Part shown: piece by piece, positions 1-4,883 of the stretch
Layout of the letters: each line of letters opens with the position of its first letter
How positions within the stretch are numbered: the stretch's first letter is position 1
Assembly: GCA_014802045.1 (NCBI GenBank)
Contig: JAAVDA010000018.1
Location: 27,467-91,466, forward strand
DNA length: 64,000 nt
Direction of reading: 5' to 3'
Source: Bacteroides sp.
GTDB lineage: Bacteria > Bacteroidota > Bacteroidia > Bacteroidales > Muribaculaceae
The notes under the pieces: model-generated
What the model was told of the DNA's origin: nothing
What the model saw: only the letters and a program-made list of their open reading frames with translations
Databases searched by the model: none
Translations under genes and position numbers: made by a program

Positions 1-587
1 CGGGTGAGGGCGGCGGCCCAGAGGGGTTCGTTGGCGGGGGAGGGGATGAGGTAGCCGCTTACGGCTTGACGGGCGCTGAGGCGGTGGAGCTGTTCGTCGA
101 GGGGTAGGGTTGACCAGTCGCAGGCTATGAGGTCGGCGAGTATGCGGTCTACTTCCGGTTGGATATGATCGAGCTCTCCGCGCCGGGCGCTGATATAGAG
201 GAGATGGGGGAGATATGCCCATGAGGGGATGAGGGGTGTGTGGCGGTAGGCTGCGACTAAGCGGTCTGTGAGGCTGACAAGGGTGTCACGCCAGAGTTGC
301 GGGCCGCGGTCGGCTTCATCAAAGCCGCGGTCGTAGATGAGGCGGTATAGGGAGCGGATGAGGAGATGGGCATGCTGCACGGAGGACTGGGCATTGATGC
401 GGCGGATGAGTTCGGGGTAGAATTCGCCCAGCTGGCGGCGCAACTGTGTGCGGTCAAGTCCTTCGTCATCGCAGAGGTTGATGAGTTCGTTGATGTCGTC
501 GATGTTGGCTATGAAGCGTTCGTCGATCATCGGTGTGATTGGGGAGAGAATCACGCGTTTGCGTAGGGTGGCGATTTCTTCGGTCAT
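1..587 (-). CDS. Unknown protein, 3' end outside window
   Basis: An open frame runs from ATG at 587 to the window edge without a stop (about 195 codons seen). It begins MTEEIATLRKRVILSP and is rich in Leu, Arg and Asp. It looks soluble and mostly helical, with no signal peptide, membrane segment or motif I recognise. Its ATG overlaps the TGA of the upstream recombinase/NusG-like gene as ATGA, so the two are probably translationally coupled and share the invertible promoter. A role in the phase-variable locus is inferred from position only; the product is unknown. Confidence 0.75.
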   Translation of the reverse strand, partial: MTEEIATLRKRVILSPITPMIDERFIANIDDINELINLCDDEGLDRTQLRRQLGEFYPELIRRINAQSSVQHAHLLIRSLYRLIYDRGFDEADRGPQLWRDTLVSLTDRLVAAYRHTPLIPSWAYLPHLLYISARRGELDHIQPEVDRILADLIACDWSTLPLDEQLHRLSARQAVSGYLIPSPANEPLWAAALT

Positions 588-2008
588 GCTACGGTGGGGT
601 GTGGGAGGGAGGTTACTTTTCGTAGGAGGCGGGAGTCGATGTCGGCTCTCCATTCAAGGCCGTTGTTGCCCCATAGGATGAGGCGGTAGACGGTTGGAGT
701 TTTGATGCTTTCGATGCGACCTTTGTGGCCCATGAACATGTCGCCGATGACTTCTACTATGTCGTCGGGCCGGAGGTCTATTGTGCCAATTGGGTAGAGG
801 TCCATGTCAGGGCTGAATATTCCGATAGCGGTCTGGAATTCAAGCATGGCAGAGTCTGGTATGGTGGCATATGGGCTGCCGGTGTCGGTTGGGCGTCTGT
901 AGCACCAGGCTATATCGCCGATATGGCGGAATATTCGGGGGATATCTGTGATGCGGCTACGGAAGAAGACAATGTCGGCAATCAGGGGTTGGTTGCAGTA
1001 GGTGAGTTTCTTTTCGATGCGCCGGGCTATCTCAACGCTGGGATAGAAGAGTTGTGGGGCGGTGAATGGGAGGGCGTGTAGGCGGGAGGTTAGAGACTCG
1101 AATCTCACACCGGGGCGCAGACGCATTGCATGCCAGCAGAGGGGATTGGAGAGGAGAATCGATTCTATGTCGGGAAGTGGTCGTGAGGAGTTTTTGCGTG
1201 GGCAGACAGTCAGTGCCGGAATGCCTGGAGGTGTGTGGCCGAGTGCCGAGACTGCCTCGCAAGGAGTGGCTCCGGCTGCGATGGTGGCATAAGCCCAGTA
1301 GCTTTGAATGGTTGCTTCGGCTGTGGTGAATACGGTTATGTTGCGGCTGCGCATTAGGGAGAGTAGTGAGGAGTCAAGCCGGGCAAGCACTTGTTTGTTG
1401 GTGGCTTGCGATTGTGAGAGGGGAAATATATATTTCCGGCGTGGGGTAGAATATGTATTGGCGATTTCAGCGGAGGTATCTGTCAGTCTGTCGGTGGTAT
1501 CCTTGTCGAGATATGCGATTTCTGACAATGATATAGAGGGGTTGAGTAATGCGAGGGTGAGCAGTGAGGCGGTGAGCTTTAGGTCGGGCTGAAGGCGTTC
1601 GGTGGTGCGGATGAGTTGGAGTAGACGCTCGAAGCTGACTGAGTCGATGCGACAGTCGGGCATATCTGGCGATAACTTCTTAATTTTGTCTTTAATCCAT
1701 GCAAACTCATCGTCTGATGTTTCATCCTTTCCCTTTAAGGAGGAGTATAGAGCGGAGAGGCTGTTGATATAGTGTAGGGCGGTTTTACGGGTATGACCCG
1801 ATATGATCATATTGACATACCAATCTGCAAGCATCTCGCGGGAAACGGCTGATATATCATGGGGATATATGGCTGTGAAGGATTCGAATGCGGTGAGTGC
1901 TTTCAGATAATTTGTTGCTGTAGACTGGGGGAGGGAAATGGCCTTATCCCGAAGTCCGGCAATCAAATTGTCAATATAGTTGAGTTGTGAATCAGGTGTT
2001 TGAGTCAT
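584..2008 (-). CDS. Dead tyrosine-recombinase-like domain fused to NusG/UpxY-like antiterminator
   Basis: Residue numbers are from ATG 2008 (474 aa). An in-frame ATG at 2101 would add 31 residues, but a perfect palindrome lies between the two, so 2008 is preferred. Residues about 5-92 resemble the SAM-like core-binding domain of phage integrases. Residues about 120-268 resemble the catalytic domain: SLSEIAYL sits where an R-x-SE box is expected, and SALGHTPP keeps the GH box. The catalytic Arg, the HxxR motif and the Tyr are not visible. Residues about 290-400 match the NusG N-terminal domain (CWHAMRLRPG, QPLIADIVFFR, IPDSAM), and about 415-440 a KOW motif (DMFMGHKGRIE). UpxY proteins antiterminate Bacteroides capsule operons. 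I infer a locus-specific antiterminator with a non-catalytic DNA-binding module; I know of no described example. Confidence 0.75.
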   Translation of the reverse strand: MTQTPDSQLNYIDNLIAGLRDKAISLPQSTATNYLKALTAFESFTAIYPHDISAVSREMLADWYVNMIISGHTRKTALHYINSLSALYSSLKGKDETSDDEFAWIKDKIKKLSPDMPDCRIDSVSFERLLQLIRTTERLQPDLKLTASLLTLALLNPSISLSEIAYLDKDTTDRLTDTSAEIANTYSTPRRKYIFPLSQSQATNKQVLARLDSSLLSLMRSRNITVFTTAEATIQSYWAYATIAAGATPCEAVSALGHTPPGIPALTVCPRKNSSRPLPDIESILLSNPLCWHAMRLRPGVRFESLTSRLHALPFTAPQLFYPSVEIARRIEKKLTYCNQPLIADIVFFRSRITDIPRIFRHIGDIAWCYRRPTDTGSPYATIPDSAMLEFQTAIGIFSPDMDLYPIGTIDLRPDDIVEVIGDMFMGHKGRIESIKTPTVYRLILWGNNGLEWRADIDSRLLRKVTSLPHPTVA

Positions 2009-2067
2009 TCGGAGTATTTTAACTTTCCGAATTGTTCGGGTAATTCTTCCCGACCCCCCGACGAGGT

Positions 2068-2083
2068 GGTGTTTATAAACACC
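2068..2083. repeat. Perfect 16-bp palindrome in leader
   Basis: GGTGTTTATAAACACC is fully self-complementary. It lies between the two possible start codons (2101 and 2008) of the recombinase/NusG-like gene. In RNA it would form a short hairpin just before the preferred start. It could be a leader signal for the antiterminator or a protein-binding site. Confidence 0.5.
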
Positions 2084-2113
2084 CGGAGGTTTCCATAGCA
2101 TATGTGGAGGTCT

Positions 2114-2141
2114 TGATTCATTGTCAAAGCAATAGGAATCA
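2114..2141 (-). promoter_or_regulatory. Leader hairpin between invertible promoter and first gene
   Basis: TGATTCATTG (2114-2123) pairs with CAATAGGAATCA (2130-2141), leaving a small bulge. It lies in the predicted 5' leader, downstream of the TSS near 2183. UpxY-type proteins act on 5' leaders of their operons, so a structured leader fits, but the stem is imperfect. Confidence 0.3.
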
Positions 2142-2159
2142 AAGAGTCGTCTTATCCAA

Positions 2160-2183
2160 ATCTCTTACGAAGAGATATGGATT
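2160..2183. repeat. Left inverted repeat of invertible segment
   Basis: This 24-bp sequence is the exact reverse complement of 2341-2364. Its outer 17 bp, ATCTCTTACGAAGAGAT, is itself a palindrome (7-bp arms, 3-bp centre), like a site bound by two recombinase subunits. Identity stops sharply on both sides. Confidence 0.9.
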
Positions 2184-2340
2184 GACACACAAAAGTAATC
2201 CTATTCTTCGAATTCTCCAAACATATTAAGAAATTAAAAGCATCCCTAACTATTCTATAAATCCGGCAAATGCAATGAAGAGATGTGACGTTATAGTCAT
2301 TCTTGAGTTGTAATTTATTGCCAATCCGAAGTTTATGCTT
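2184..2340. promoter_or_regulatory. Invertible DNA segment (promoter switch)
   Basis: 157 bp lie between perfect 24-bp inverted repeats. The segment holds a complete leftward promoter and no gene. This is the architecture of the Mpi-controlled promoters of Bacteroides capsule loci. As assembled the promoter faces the recombinase/NusG-like gene (ON). Flipped, it would fire rightwards towards the 3' end of the GH3 gene (OFF). No active invertase is encoded in the window, so the enzyme must act in trans. Confidence 0.82.
2190..2221 (-). promoter_or_regulatory. Bacteroidales promoter inside invertible segment
   Basis: On the minus strand, TTTG (2221-2218) is followed after 20 bp by TACTTTTG (2197-2190). 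This matches the Bacteroides -33 TTTG / -7 TAnnTTTG consensus in both boxes. The predicted TSS is near 2183, inside or at the edge of the left repeat. Confidence 0.8.
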
Positions 2341-2364
2341 AATCCATATCTCTTCGTAAGAGAT
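2341..2364. repeat. Right inverted repeat of invertible segment
   Basis: Exact reverse complement of 2160-2183 over 24 bp, with core ATCTCTTCGTAAGAGAT. An 80-codon open frame starts at 2335 and runs across it, but it has no family resemblance and is not called. Confidence 0.9.
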
Positions 2365-2627
2365 GTTGAATCAGTCCCTTATTTTTCCCTTAATAAAAAA
2401 ATTCTGAAATTGGTTAGATGGCAAGATCTGTGCAATCTTGCTTATTGCGGTGTGAAAAGTGGAGAAGGGATAGTGGGATATAAACGAGTCAATAGCAAAA
2501 CCCGGTTGAAAAGTCTAAAAAAACTTCCACCATTGACTTGTGTGGTGCTGTGGCCGGAAGTCAGTGGCGGAAGTTGATTATCGTGTCGGTGCTAATGGGG
2601 GCGGACGAAGGGGGGGGAAGTGATTAT
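2365..2627. other. Non-coding gap between switch and PUL
   Basis: No convincing gene. A small hairpin, GCAAGAT/ATCTTGC at 2421-2441, has no adjacent T-run. No clear terminator is seen after the GH3 gene that ends at 2628. An OFF-oriented invertible promoter would read into this gap. Confidence 0.5.
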
Positions 2628-4883
2628 TCAATCATGCCAGGCGATGCCAGGGGCGCTGATTTCAATCGGTAGGCAAGCGCTTATCGCATCGGATGCGGTG
2701 CCAATCAGGATTTCAAATTCGCCGGGCTCTACAATCCATTGTTGTCTGTTGTCATCAAAGTAAGCAAAAGCATTTTTGTCGAGAGTGAGAGTTGCGTTGA
2801 CAGTTTCGCTCGGATTAATCTTAACCTTTTTGAATGCTTTGAGTTCTTTATACGGGCGTGGAAGCGAACTTTTCTTGTCGTGGACATAGACCTGGATAAC
2901 TTCTGAGCCGGCGCGGTTTCCGGTGTTGCTGACCGGAACGGTCACAGTTATGGTGTCGTCACTTCCAGACAGGGTGGGTGTGGAGAGCTGTGGTTTTCCG
3001 AGAGCGAAGGTGGTGTAGCTCAGTCCGTGTCCGAAGGCATAGTTCACGTTGGTTGATGGGAGTCGGTCGGTATGGCGGTAGCCGATATCAAGGCCTTCTT
3101 TATAATACACTTTTCCATCGACACCGGGATACATCTCGGGGGCGGAGTTGGTGTGAGGGGCATAATCGGTAAGAGAGGAGGCAAATGTGAAGGGGAGTTT
3201 GCCTGATGGGTTAACGTGGCCGAATATCACATCGGCAATCGCGTTGCCGGCTTCAGAACCGATATACCATCCCTGGACTATTGCGGGGACTTTGTCTTTC
3301 CATGGCATCGAATAGGCGTTGCCTGTGAGCATGACCACGACTGTGTTGGGGTTGGCTTCGGCGAGTGCGGTGATGAGTTCGTCCTGTGCGTAGGGAAGCG
3401 AGAAGTTCTTGCGGTCGGTTCCTTCGCAGTCTTGGTGGTCAGACTTGTTTAATCCGCCAATGAATATTACCATGTCGGCTTCACGGGCAGCTTTCACCGC
3501 GTTGGCAATAAGCTGCTGAGATGAGCGGGAGTCGGCGAGATTCTGTCCGGTAGTCACTCCGTTGTATTCTCCGGTGGTGTCGCCCACATAGCCACGCTCG
3601 TAATTCACCTCAATGCCCCAGGTTGCGGCATGGGCAGCAATGCCTTCGAGCGGCATGGTCTCGCGCTGCACTTTAAGAGATGAGGAGCCTCCGCCTACGG
3701 TCATCATTTTTATGGCGTTTTCTCCAACCAAAAGTATGCGTTTCACATCTTCGGCAACCGGAAGAAGATTGTGGTTGTTCTTGAGCAATACGATGCCTTC
3801 GCCGGCAATACGGCGGGCTGCATCATAGTGGTCCTGACTGTTGAGGGACCCATAGGGGCGATTACGGTTCATCTCGGTGCGCATAATCAGGCGGAGCACT
3901 CTGGCTGCTTTGTCGTCGAGGAGAGCTGTGTCAGCTTTTCCTTCGGAGATGAGCTTCAGATACGGACGGGCAAGATAGTAGTCGTCGTAGGCATTGCTGG
4001 CTCCGTTGGCAAGTCCGTCGGTCCAGGAGCCGAATTCCATATCAAGACCGTTTGCCGCGACTTTCTCTGTATTATGCACGGCTCCCCAGTCGCTTATTGC
4101 AACGCCGTCGAATTTCCAGTCGCCTTTGAGTATGTCGAGCAGCAGGGTAGAATTTTCGCAAGCGTGATCACCGGCATATTTGTTGTAGCCGGGCATTATG
4201 GCCCATGCTCCTCCCTCTTTTATGGCGGCTTTGAAGGCAGGGAGATAAATCTCATGGAGAGTGCGGTCGTCGACATATACATCCACGTGGTCTCGGTCTA
4301 TCTCCTGATTATTGAGTGCGTAATGTTTCACGCAAGCTGCCACTCCATTTGCCTGGACACCTTGGATGTAGGGCACAACCATACGCGACGTGAGATAGGG
4401 GTCTTCGCCCATATATTCGAAATTACGTCCGTTGAGGGGCGAACGATAGATATTCACTCCCGGGCCGAGAAGCACATTCTTGTTTCTGTATCTCGCTTCT
4501 TCACCAATCGACTTGCCGTAGAGGGCGGCCATGTCAGGATTCCAGGTAGCGGCCAGGCAGGTGAGTGCGGGGAACGCCACACAGGAGTCGTTGGTGGCTC
4601 CGGCCTGATCCCATTCGTCCCACAGCACGTCGGGACGGATGCCGTGAGGCCCGTCTGTGCACCATATGCCCGGAATGCCGAGTCTCTGCACTCCCGGAGA
4701 GCTGAATTTGCTCTGTGCATGGATTATCGCGATTTTGTCTGCCACGTTCATGCGTGAGAGTGCGTCGTGCACCCTTTCTTCAAGCGGTTTTGTGTCGTCA
4801 AGATATATCGGAGTCTGGGCGGCAGCATAGAGTGATGCTGCTCCCACCAGCAGGGTTAAGGTAGTTTTCAGGGTCATAACCAT
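2628..4883 (-). CDS. GH3 beta-glucosidase, secreted
   Basis: About 751 aa with a signal peptide ending near AAAQT. The (beta/alpha)8 domain carries the KHY motif and the nucleophile Asp in AISDWG (about residue 265). A second alpha/beta domain and a C-terminal fibronectin-III-like domain follow, the full BglX-type layout. GH3 enzymes of this type remove terminal beta-glucose from oligosaccharides, probably in the periplasm. The frame opens with TTG at 4895, but ATG 4883 begins 1 nt past the GH5 stop and suits the signal peptide. It is the last gene of the PUL operon. Substrate linkage cannot be read from sequence. Confidence 0.9.
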   Translation of the reverse strand: MVMTLKTTLTLLVGAASLYAAAQTPIYLDDTKPLEERVHDALSRMNVADKIAIIHAQSKFSSPGVQRLGIPGIWCTDGPHGIRPDVLWDEWDQAGATNDSCVAFPALTCLAATWNPDMAALYGKSIGEEARYRNKNVLLGPGVNIYRSPLNGRNFEYMGEDPYLTSRMVVPYIQGVQANGVAACVKHYALNNQEIDRDHVDVYVDDRTLHEIYLPAFKAAIKEGGAWAIMPGYNKYAGDHACENSTLLLDILKGDWKFDGVAISDWGAVHNTEKVAANGLDMEFGSWTDGLANGASNAYDDYYLARPYLKLISEGKADTALLDDKAARVLRLIMRTEMNRNRPYGSLNSQDHYDAARRIAGEGIVLLKNNHNLLPVAEDVKRILLVGENAIKMMTVGGGSSSLKVQRETMPLEGIAAHAATWGIEVNYERGYVGDTTGEYNGVTTGQNLADSRSSQQLIANAVKAAREADMVIFIGGLNKSDHQDCEGTDRKNFSLPYAQDELITALAEANPNTVVVMLTGNAYSMPWKDKVPAIVQGWYIGSEAGNAIADVIFGHVNPSGKLPFTFASSLTDYAPHTNSAPEMYPGVDGKVYYKEGLDIGYRHTDRLPSTNVNYAFGHGLSYTTFALGKPQLSTPTLSGSDDTITVTVPVSNTGNRAGSEVIQVYVHDKKSSLPRPYKELKAFKKVKINPSETVNATLTLDKNAFAYFDDNRQQWIVEPGEFEILIGTASDAISACLPIEISAPGIAWHD

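Follow-up and report, generated by a model that had tools for sequence, protein, structure and literature searches.

A dead tyrosine-recombinase domain joined to a UpxY-like antiterminator, and a candidate leader RNA hairpin beside its genes

What does a recombinase domain that has lost its catalytic residues do when it is joined to an antiterminator of transcription? The question is raised by a gene near the start of the stretch of DNA analyzed here (the window; 64,000 nucleotides, G000:C18:27467-91466 of a 2.22-Mb draft genome that is 75.7% complete). A first-pass annotation had proposed that one open frame encodes a dead tyrosine-recombinase-like domain followed by an antiterminator, and profile comparison and AlphaFold modeling confirmed this fusion (Table 1). 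Residues 7-268 are tyrosine-recombinase-like, and residues 289-466 comprise NGN plus KOW. The frame is open to an ATG at 2101, but we favor a start near 2008 because the R1 element described below occupies the intervening stretch and because most aligned relatives start near the 2008 position. The protein has no other match in its own genome at E ≤ 0.001.

Table 1. Features of the fusion locus, in window positions
Feature	Position	Strand	Basis or remark
Second operon gene, 183 aa, unmatched in Pfam, continues beyond the window; polysaccharide biosynthesis genes after it	1..530	minus	
Fusion gene, 474 aa: dead tyrosine-recombinase domain plus UpxY-like NGN-KOW antiterminator	584..2008	minus	ORF, profile comparison, AlphaFold model
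KOW domain, residues about 411-466	611..778	minus	Sequence search and model
NGN domain, residues about 289-397	818..1144	minus	NCBIfam UpxY; RfaH/NusG match
Catalytic-like domain, residues about 123-268; lacks Arg, Lys hairpin, HxxR and Tyr; GH retained	1205..1642	minus	Alignment, hhalign, model
Core-binding (SAM-like) domain, residues about 7-110	1679..1990	minus	Pfam Phage_int_SAM, hhalign, model
R1: predicted hairpin, then GGGTCGGGAAGAATT, about 50 nt before start codon	2034..2109	minus	Covariation; sole strong genome match; family-wide beside fusions
Gene-proximal inverted repeat arm; core site 2160-2176, ATCTCTTACGAAGAGAT	2155..2183		Probably in transcribed leader (start site inferred)
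Candidate Bacteroidetes-type promoter TTTG-N20-TACTTTTG, inside the invertible segment, facing the gene (ON)	2190..2221	minus	-7 boxes by script; TTTG and spacing by eye
Distal inverted repeat arm; core site 2348-2364	2341..2369		Repeat search

The N-terminal domain aligned with intact invertases at an hhalign probability of 99.4%. The C-terminal domain aligned with canonical UpxY at 99.6% (E = 5.7e-24; 54 fusion C-domains, 51 of them used, against 13 canonical ones) and matched the NCBIfam UpxY model, bearing out the predicted NGN-like stretch and KOW motif. The AlphaFold model (pLDDT 83.6) agrees with the profile comparison on both halves. Structure prediction had been proposed as the check on the initial reading and did not refute it: with VIA-align applied to Foldseek's list of matches, a tyrosine-recombinase (integrase) fold, core-binding plus catalytic domain, was found at the N-terminus and an NGN fold at the C-terminus.

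Canonical UpxY is a single NGN-KOW protein of about 170-200 aa, which is also the size of the canonical frames seen here. The fusion resembles it in its NGN-KOW half, its place at the head of a polysaccharide operon, its invertible-type promoter, and its putative leader element. It differs in that about 285 of its 474 residues are an N-terminal addition derived from a recombinase and in that it scores below the curated cut-off of the UpxY model NF033644 (34.5 bits, E = 1.9e-8; cut-off 100 bits). That model matched all 19 fusion members scanned at E ≤ 0.1 (best 5.9e-17), and the NCBIfam LoaP model matched 9 of the 19. The best sequence match to a solved NGN-KOW structure was 8f5g (E = 7e-4 in one search and 0.008 in another), whose title describes a NusG-RNA complex. 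On a quick C-domain tree, 54 fusions formed a branch separate from the 13 canonical UpxY (SH-aLRT 95). The fusion in L092 (1841-3016, plus strand), a more divergent recombinase-NGN fusion, has a long branch among canonical UpxY and possibly arose in a separate fusion event. The same locus holds an intact-looking invertase (121-1464) and inversion sites at 1501 and 1667.

The catalytic Arg-Lys-HxxR-Tyr set of tyrosine recombinases is not found in the fusions. Against 16 intact invertases, we aligned 34 of 53 distinct rows plus L088 and L092; this count excludes the 13 distant rows as well as L030, L050, L052, L056, L057, and L058. The Tyr is absent and the Lys hairpin deleted in 36/36. The first Arg is still present in 4/36, the second Arg in 11/36, and the GH His in 7/36. 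For the window's own protein, the alignment agrees with the first-pass annotation, which had reported the loss of the catalytic Arg, HxxR, and Tyr and the retention of the GH box. In the three pairs close enough for estimation (L033/L034, L072/L073, and L020/L022; the others are saturated or more distant), dN/dS was 0.14, 0.08, and 0.14 for the N-domain and 0.03, 0.01, and 0.21 for the C-domain. W63, Y80, Q199, and W238 are invariant or nearly so among 19 and 31 diverse members. The missing catalytic residues, together with the low N-domain dN/dS, indicate that catalysis was lost while the domain was maintained.

The fusion is a family and not a single case. It matched 93 of 397 same-family genomes at E ≤ 1e-5, part of these through the C-terminal half only; from the locus titles, we read this taxonomic family as Muribaculaceae. 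Among 42 named loci in GTDB species genomes, the titles were Muribaculaceae (20), Porphyromonadaceae (13), Bacteroidales (5), and, once each, Duncaniella muris DSM 103720 (an isolate), Paramuribaculum, Alistipes (L048), and Clostridiales (L043). In an order-wide search of 295 genomes, the window's own match was the only one of the 51 matches listed to span both halves, a test that a very divergent fusion could escape. On this both-halves test we rejected a fusion elsewhere in the order, though L048 is titled Alistipes and L043 Clostridiales. A phage origin was also rejected, as 26 pattern matches in viral_contigs yielded 0 confirmed by tblastn. Several members depart from the common form. A distant clade (L060 and L062-L073, n = 13; e.g., L064:9851-11305) is about 20-26% identical, and L050, L052, and L056 are longer (558-717 aa) and carry extra sequence. 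L111 (G036:C11, ORF 1453-2550, minus) is a 366-aa frame with a dead N-domain and no recognizable NGN-KOW half in frame.

Across 41 relative genomes, all 23 non-fusion matches to the N-domain profile sit in frames that match the intact-invertase profile (E = 3.9e-9 to 2.9e-197). Judged by sequence, the N-domain is derived from the same invertase family as intact capsule-promoter invertases. The Bacteroidales tyrosine DNA invertases found beside invertible capsule promoters share its core-binding and catalytic fold and are clearly homologous; the fusion differs from them in lacking the arm domain, Lys hairpin, and Tyr and in being joined to an antiterminator. In L082, L083, and L091, an invertase, an inversion site, and a canonical upxY gene are adjacent. 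A recombinase frame and a UpxY frame share a strand, separated by 0.4-0.9 kb, in 3 of 29 order-level loci (L170, L173, and L181, from L160-L188). The fusion therefore unites genes that are neighbors elsewhere, and a simple deletion could create it. According to excerpts of PMC12118408, a tyrosine invertase adjoining an invertible promoter and upxY has already been described, and excerpts of PMC8748976 mention one upxY fused to part of wecA as a case of degeneration. Searches of open-licence PMC papers, by title listing and abstract opening, turned up no recombinase-UpxY fusion.

The fusion gene heads a surface-polysaccharide operon, as a UpxY gene does. Farther downstream in the genome are genes for Polysacc_synt_2, a DegT aminotransferase, NeuB, a flippase, and glycosyltransferases. 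In 10 relatives, the gene after the fusion scored above the cut-off for polysaccharide export, synthesis, or modification in 6 (polysaccharide export in 2, then UDP-sugar dehydrogenase, acyltransferase, CpsB/CapC, and TupA-like kinds), resembled a flippase weakly in 1 (L050), and was unmatched in 3. By eye, flippase-like genes follow the distant members L060, L062, and L065, and no polysaccharide-type gene follows L063, L064, L066-L068, or L070-L072 on the same strand; these last are perhaps stand-alone regulators. As for upxZ, which follows upxY in capsule operons, Pfam recognized no UpxZ in the window's second gene, and it gave no match of any kind there or for the corresponding gene in L036, L049, and L061. 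Two Bacteroides fragilis UpxY proteins are without UpxZ, according to excerpts of PMC7593976.

Upstream of the gene, the two repeat arms are 93% complementary with 157 nt between them, and a perfect 24-nt repeat core flanks the promoter. We called the promoter from what we take to be the Bacteroidetes-type consensus; a further TAnnTTTG lies 28 nt upstream of it. The core inversion site, ATCTCTTnnnAAGAGAT, occurs in its own genome only in the two window arms, even when one mismatch is allowed. L020 and L022, which represent two congeneric species, have their homologous segments in opposite orientations: the identity is 78% reversed versus 60% as read, the promoter half is identical, and the flanks are 67 and 91% identical. 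By these sequence comparisons, the window promoter lies in a segment of invertible type. The capsule-type setting that had been suggested thus gained support from both the polysaccharide operon and the promoter. The draft genome holds one intact invertase of this family (G000:C11:46099-47328; L190:5100-6329, minus), which is 63% identical to the invertase adjoining sites in L088. The surrounding 12 kb contains no inversion site. In this incomplete genome, it is the likely flipper of the window promoter and would act in trans. By eye, it adjoins a run of ORFs resembling a sigma factor, an anti-sigma factor, and SusC.

We searched 700 nt upstream of the fusions for the inversion site, allowing up to 2 mismatches (shuffle chance 0.004 per sequence). 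It was present at 18/43 close fusions, 13 of them with both arms, versus 1/13 distant fusions. Homologs therefore do not always lie beside such promoters, the point that the first-pass annotation had proposed to check. The inverted repeats at three loci (L036, L039, and L061) differ from it in sequence. Among the 397 family genomes, ATCTCTTnnnAAGAGAT occurs in 128, versus 3 for the pattern read backwards, which indicates that the inversion site belongs to a general system. It is often paired, with copies roughly 165-290 nt apart and the 3-nt center reversed between arms. Some site-bearing genomes are without a fusion match (e.g., G023, G064, G074, and G077), and we discarded the idea that the site is the private binding site of the fusion. 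Overall, the initial reading was supported in part: for the fusion, the dead domain, the NGN-KOW half, the operon, and the invertible promoter. Binding of recombinase-like DNA sites is still a hypothesis, and binding of the inversion site would not be general.

A different element was found in the leader. The motif GGGTCG, which forms the 3' side of the predicted R1 hairpin, occurs within 150 nt upstream of the start in 17/38 close fusions versus 14/362 other ORF starts. In 19 aligned leaders, 83% of the cells in the 9-pair apical stem are paired. Stem covariation was 0.531, compared with 0.321 in shuffles (0/500) and at most 0.286 when the stem was slid along the alignment. The apical 9-pair stem is thus well supported by the alignment, whereas basal pairs drawn from one sequence had poor support (over 20 pairs, 61.6% of cells paired) and were rejected. 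The evidence for the hairpin is comparative, since the window leader folded by itself is no better than shuffled sequence (z = -0.72). Rfam returned no credible match in window positions 1900-2700 (best mir-259, E = 0.2, 20.2 bits versus a threshold of 50), and the minus strand of the leader contains no intrinsic-terminator-like site.

When the R1 model was run over 90 sources (870 kb), all 22 matches at E < 0.01 fell where a fusion begins; for L025 and L028, the match is inside a 5' extension of the fusion frame. The window's genome has one strong match (E = 5.8e-10; next 2.14). In the 397 genomes, comparison of two match lists placed 22/22 R1 matches (E ≤ 0.001) just upstream of fusions. R1 was discovered in and aligned from the same fusion loci, so that the 5 of these 22 lying outside the model (G244:C8, G088:C17, G201:C29, G228:C26, and G375:C58) are the independent ones; the strict filters of this search lose weak matches. 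R1 was absent at the canonical UpxY loci searched (L078, L079, L082, L083, L091, L097, L098, and L101). At least one cultured isolate, D. muris DSM 103720, has both the fusion gene and R1; its contig stops shortly past the fusion and contains a single inversion site instead of a pair. At the sequence level, then, the element specific to the fusions is the leader hairpin and not the inversion site. Among the 43 close fusions, 12 have R1 and the site, 10 have R1 alone, 6 have the site alone, and 15 have neither. At E < 0.01, 21/43 gave no R1 match, so that recognition either differs among the fusions or does not extend to all of them. Some canonical upxY genes have a leader motif of another kind: GTAACTnCnTG is common to the leaders in L078, L082, L083, L091, and L181, with a second conserved stretch (GAAT/GATT-type) about 40 nt beyond it. 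GTAACT near a repeat occurs in 5 of 15 short-frame rows; one row among the 15 is a fusion truncated by a contig end. This is possibly the matching leader element of canonical UpxY.

Excerpts of two papers describe UpxY proteins as stopping premature termination in their own 5' leaders (PMC7819879 and PMC7315117), and excerpts of a third describe LoaP, a NusG paralog of Bacillota, as needing or binding a leader RNA hairpin (PMC12691694). By analogy, we propose that the fusion is a UpxY-like antiterminator specific to the operon it heads and that its dead invertase domain now serves to recognize the target, a proposal in which our confidence is evenly balanced. Counting against it are the unremarkable folding of the window leader by itself, the close fusions without an R1 match, and the lack of a terminator-like site on the minus strand of the leader. 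The promoter would be flipped by the intact tyrosine invertase encoded elsewhere (G000:C11). With the promoter ON, the leader would be transcribed and the fusion protein made. The protein would then be recruited at the R1 hairpin, its NGN domain would bind RNA polymerase, and premature termination would be suppressed, allowing the long operon to be read through. The N-domain would have been co-opted to recognize nucleic acid and would thereby tether the antiterminator to its leader, either at the RNA hairpin or at the underlying DNA. The resemblance to LoaP lies in a NusG paralog tied to a leader hairpin, which here covaries and is a putative binding site; LoaP is without a recombinase domain, and the likeness is in the presence of a hairpin. 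RfaH, as described in excerpted sources, differs: it is a stand-alone protein working in trans, and the element it recognizes is DNA (ops).

Target recognition is the most likely role of the N-domain, favored over an inversion lock or a protein contact. Under the lock, the dead domain would join or compete with intact invertase at the sites, such that the first product of the ON operon blocks further flipping while NGN-KOW antiterminates independently. The shared descent with invertases fits this idea, as does the site that directly follows the promoter in its ON orientation. L088 has an intact-looking invertase adjacent to a site pair and a fusion, and L031 has the same arrangement, with an invertase frame cut by the locus end and sites with one mismatch. 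The lock is nonetheless improbable, given that the site pair occurs in just 13/43 close fusions, that R1 is kept at 10 fusions without the site, and that many basic residues have been lost. With 25/43 close fusions lacking a site within 700 nt, binding of the inversion site is not general. Still less probable, and indeed very unlikely, is that the N-domain is a passive relic of the joining of an invertase gene to a neighboring upxY, with the C-terminal half doing all the work. The adjacent genes in L082, L083, L091, L170, L173, and L181 are what such a history would leave, and in 3/3 close pairs the N-domain shows a higher dN than the C-domain, but strong purifying selection on the N-domain (dN/dS 0.08-0.14) and its four nearly invariant residues speak against it.

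Somewhat unlikely, though ahead of both, is a module for protein interaction or autoinhibition that has no nucleic-acid role and, for example, masks the RNA-polymerase face of NGN until loading or binds the product of the second operon gene. Many hydrophobic positions and a fusion-specific stretch (RRKYxFPLxQS, LWAxAAL) are kept while basic residues fall. From invertases to fusions, mean net charge drops from +5.4 to +1.6 in the core-binding part and from +8.8 to +3.5 in the catalytic part, and the majority of 26 basic positions conserved in invertases are gone. The fusions keep 12-31% of basic positions, compared with 27-85% in six control recombinases. Five of these controls keep 46-85% but are closer to invertases (28-55% identity); the sixth, L127, whose divergence equals that of the fusions (20% identity), keeps 27%. 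Because L127 keeps about as few basic positions as the fusions, their loss is not diagnostic for DNA binding, and we do not take it as proof that such binding was lost; the pattern leans against the ancestral mode of DNA binding. Any partner protein is hypothetical, which counts against this explanation. Returning to target recognition, we entertain a fuller history that we consider less likely than not: a phase-variation invertase, through loss of catalysis and fusion, may have become the part of an antiterminator that recognizes a new leader RNA element. A single recombinase family would then provide the ON/OFF flip of the promoter as well as the licensing of elongation on one operon.

How UpxY proteins find only their own operon is, to our knowledge, an open question. 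The covarying R1 leader hairpin, as predicted from the alignments, is a new element. The derived, dead invertase domain and the family-specific hairpin make own-operon recognition by specialized NusG paralogs directly testable. If our proposal is true, a tyrosine-recombinase fold would be used outside recombination, in the control of transcription elongation, and the fusion may link two switches of bacterial coats, promoter flipping and antitermination.
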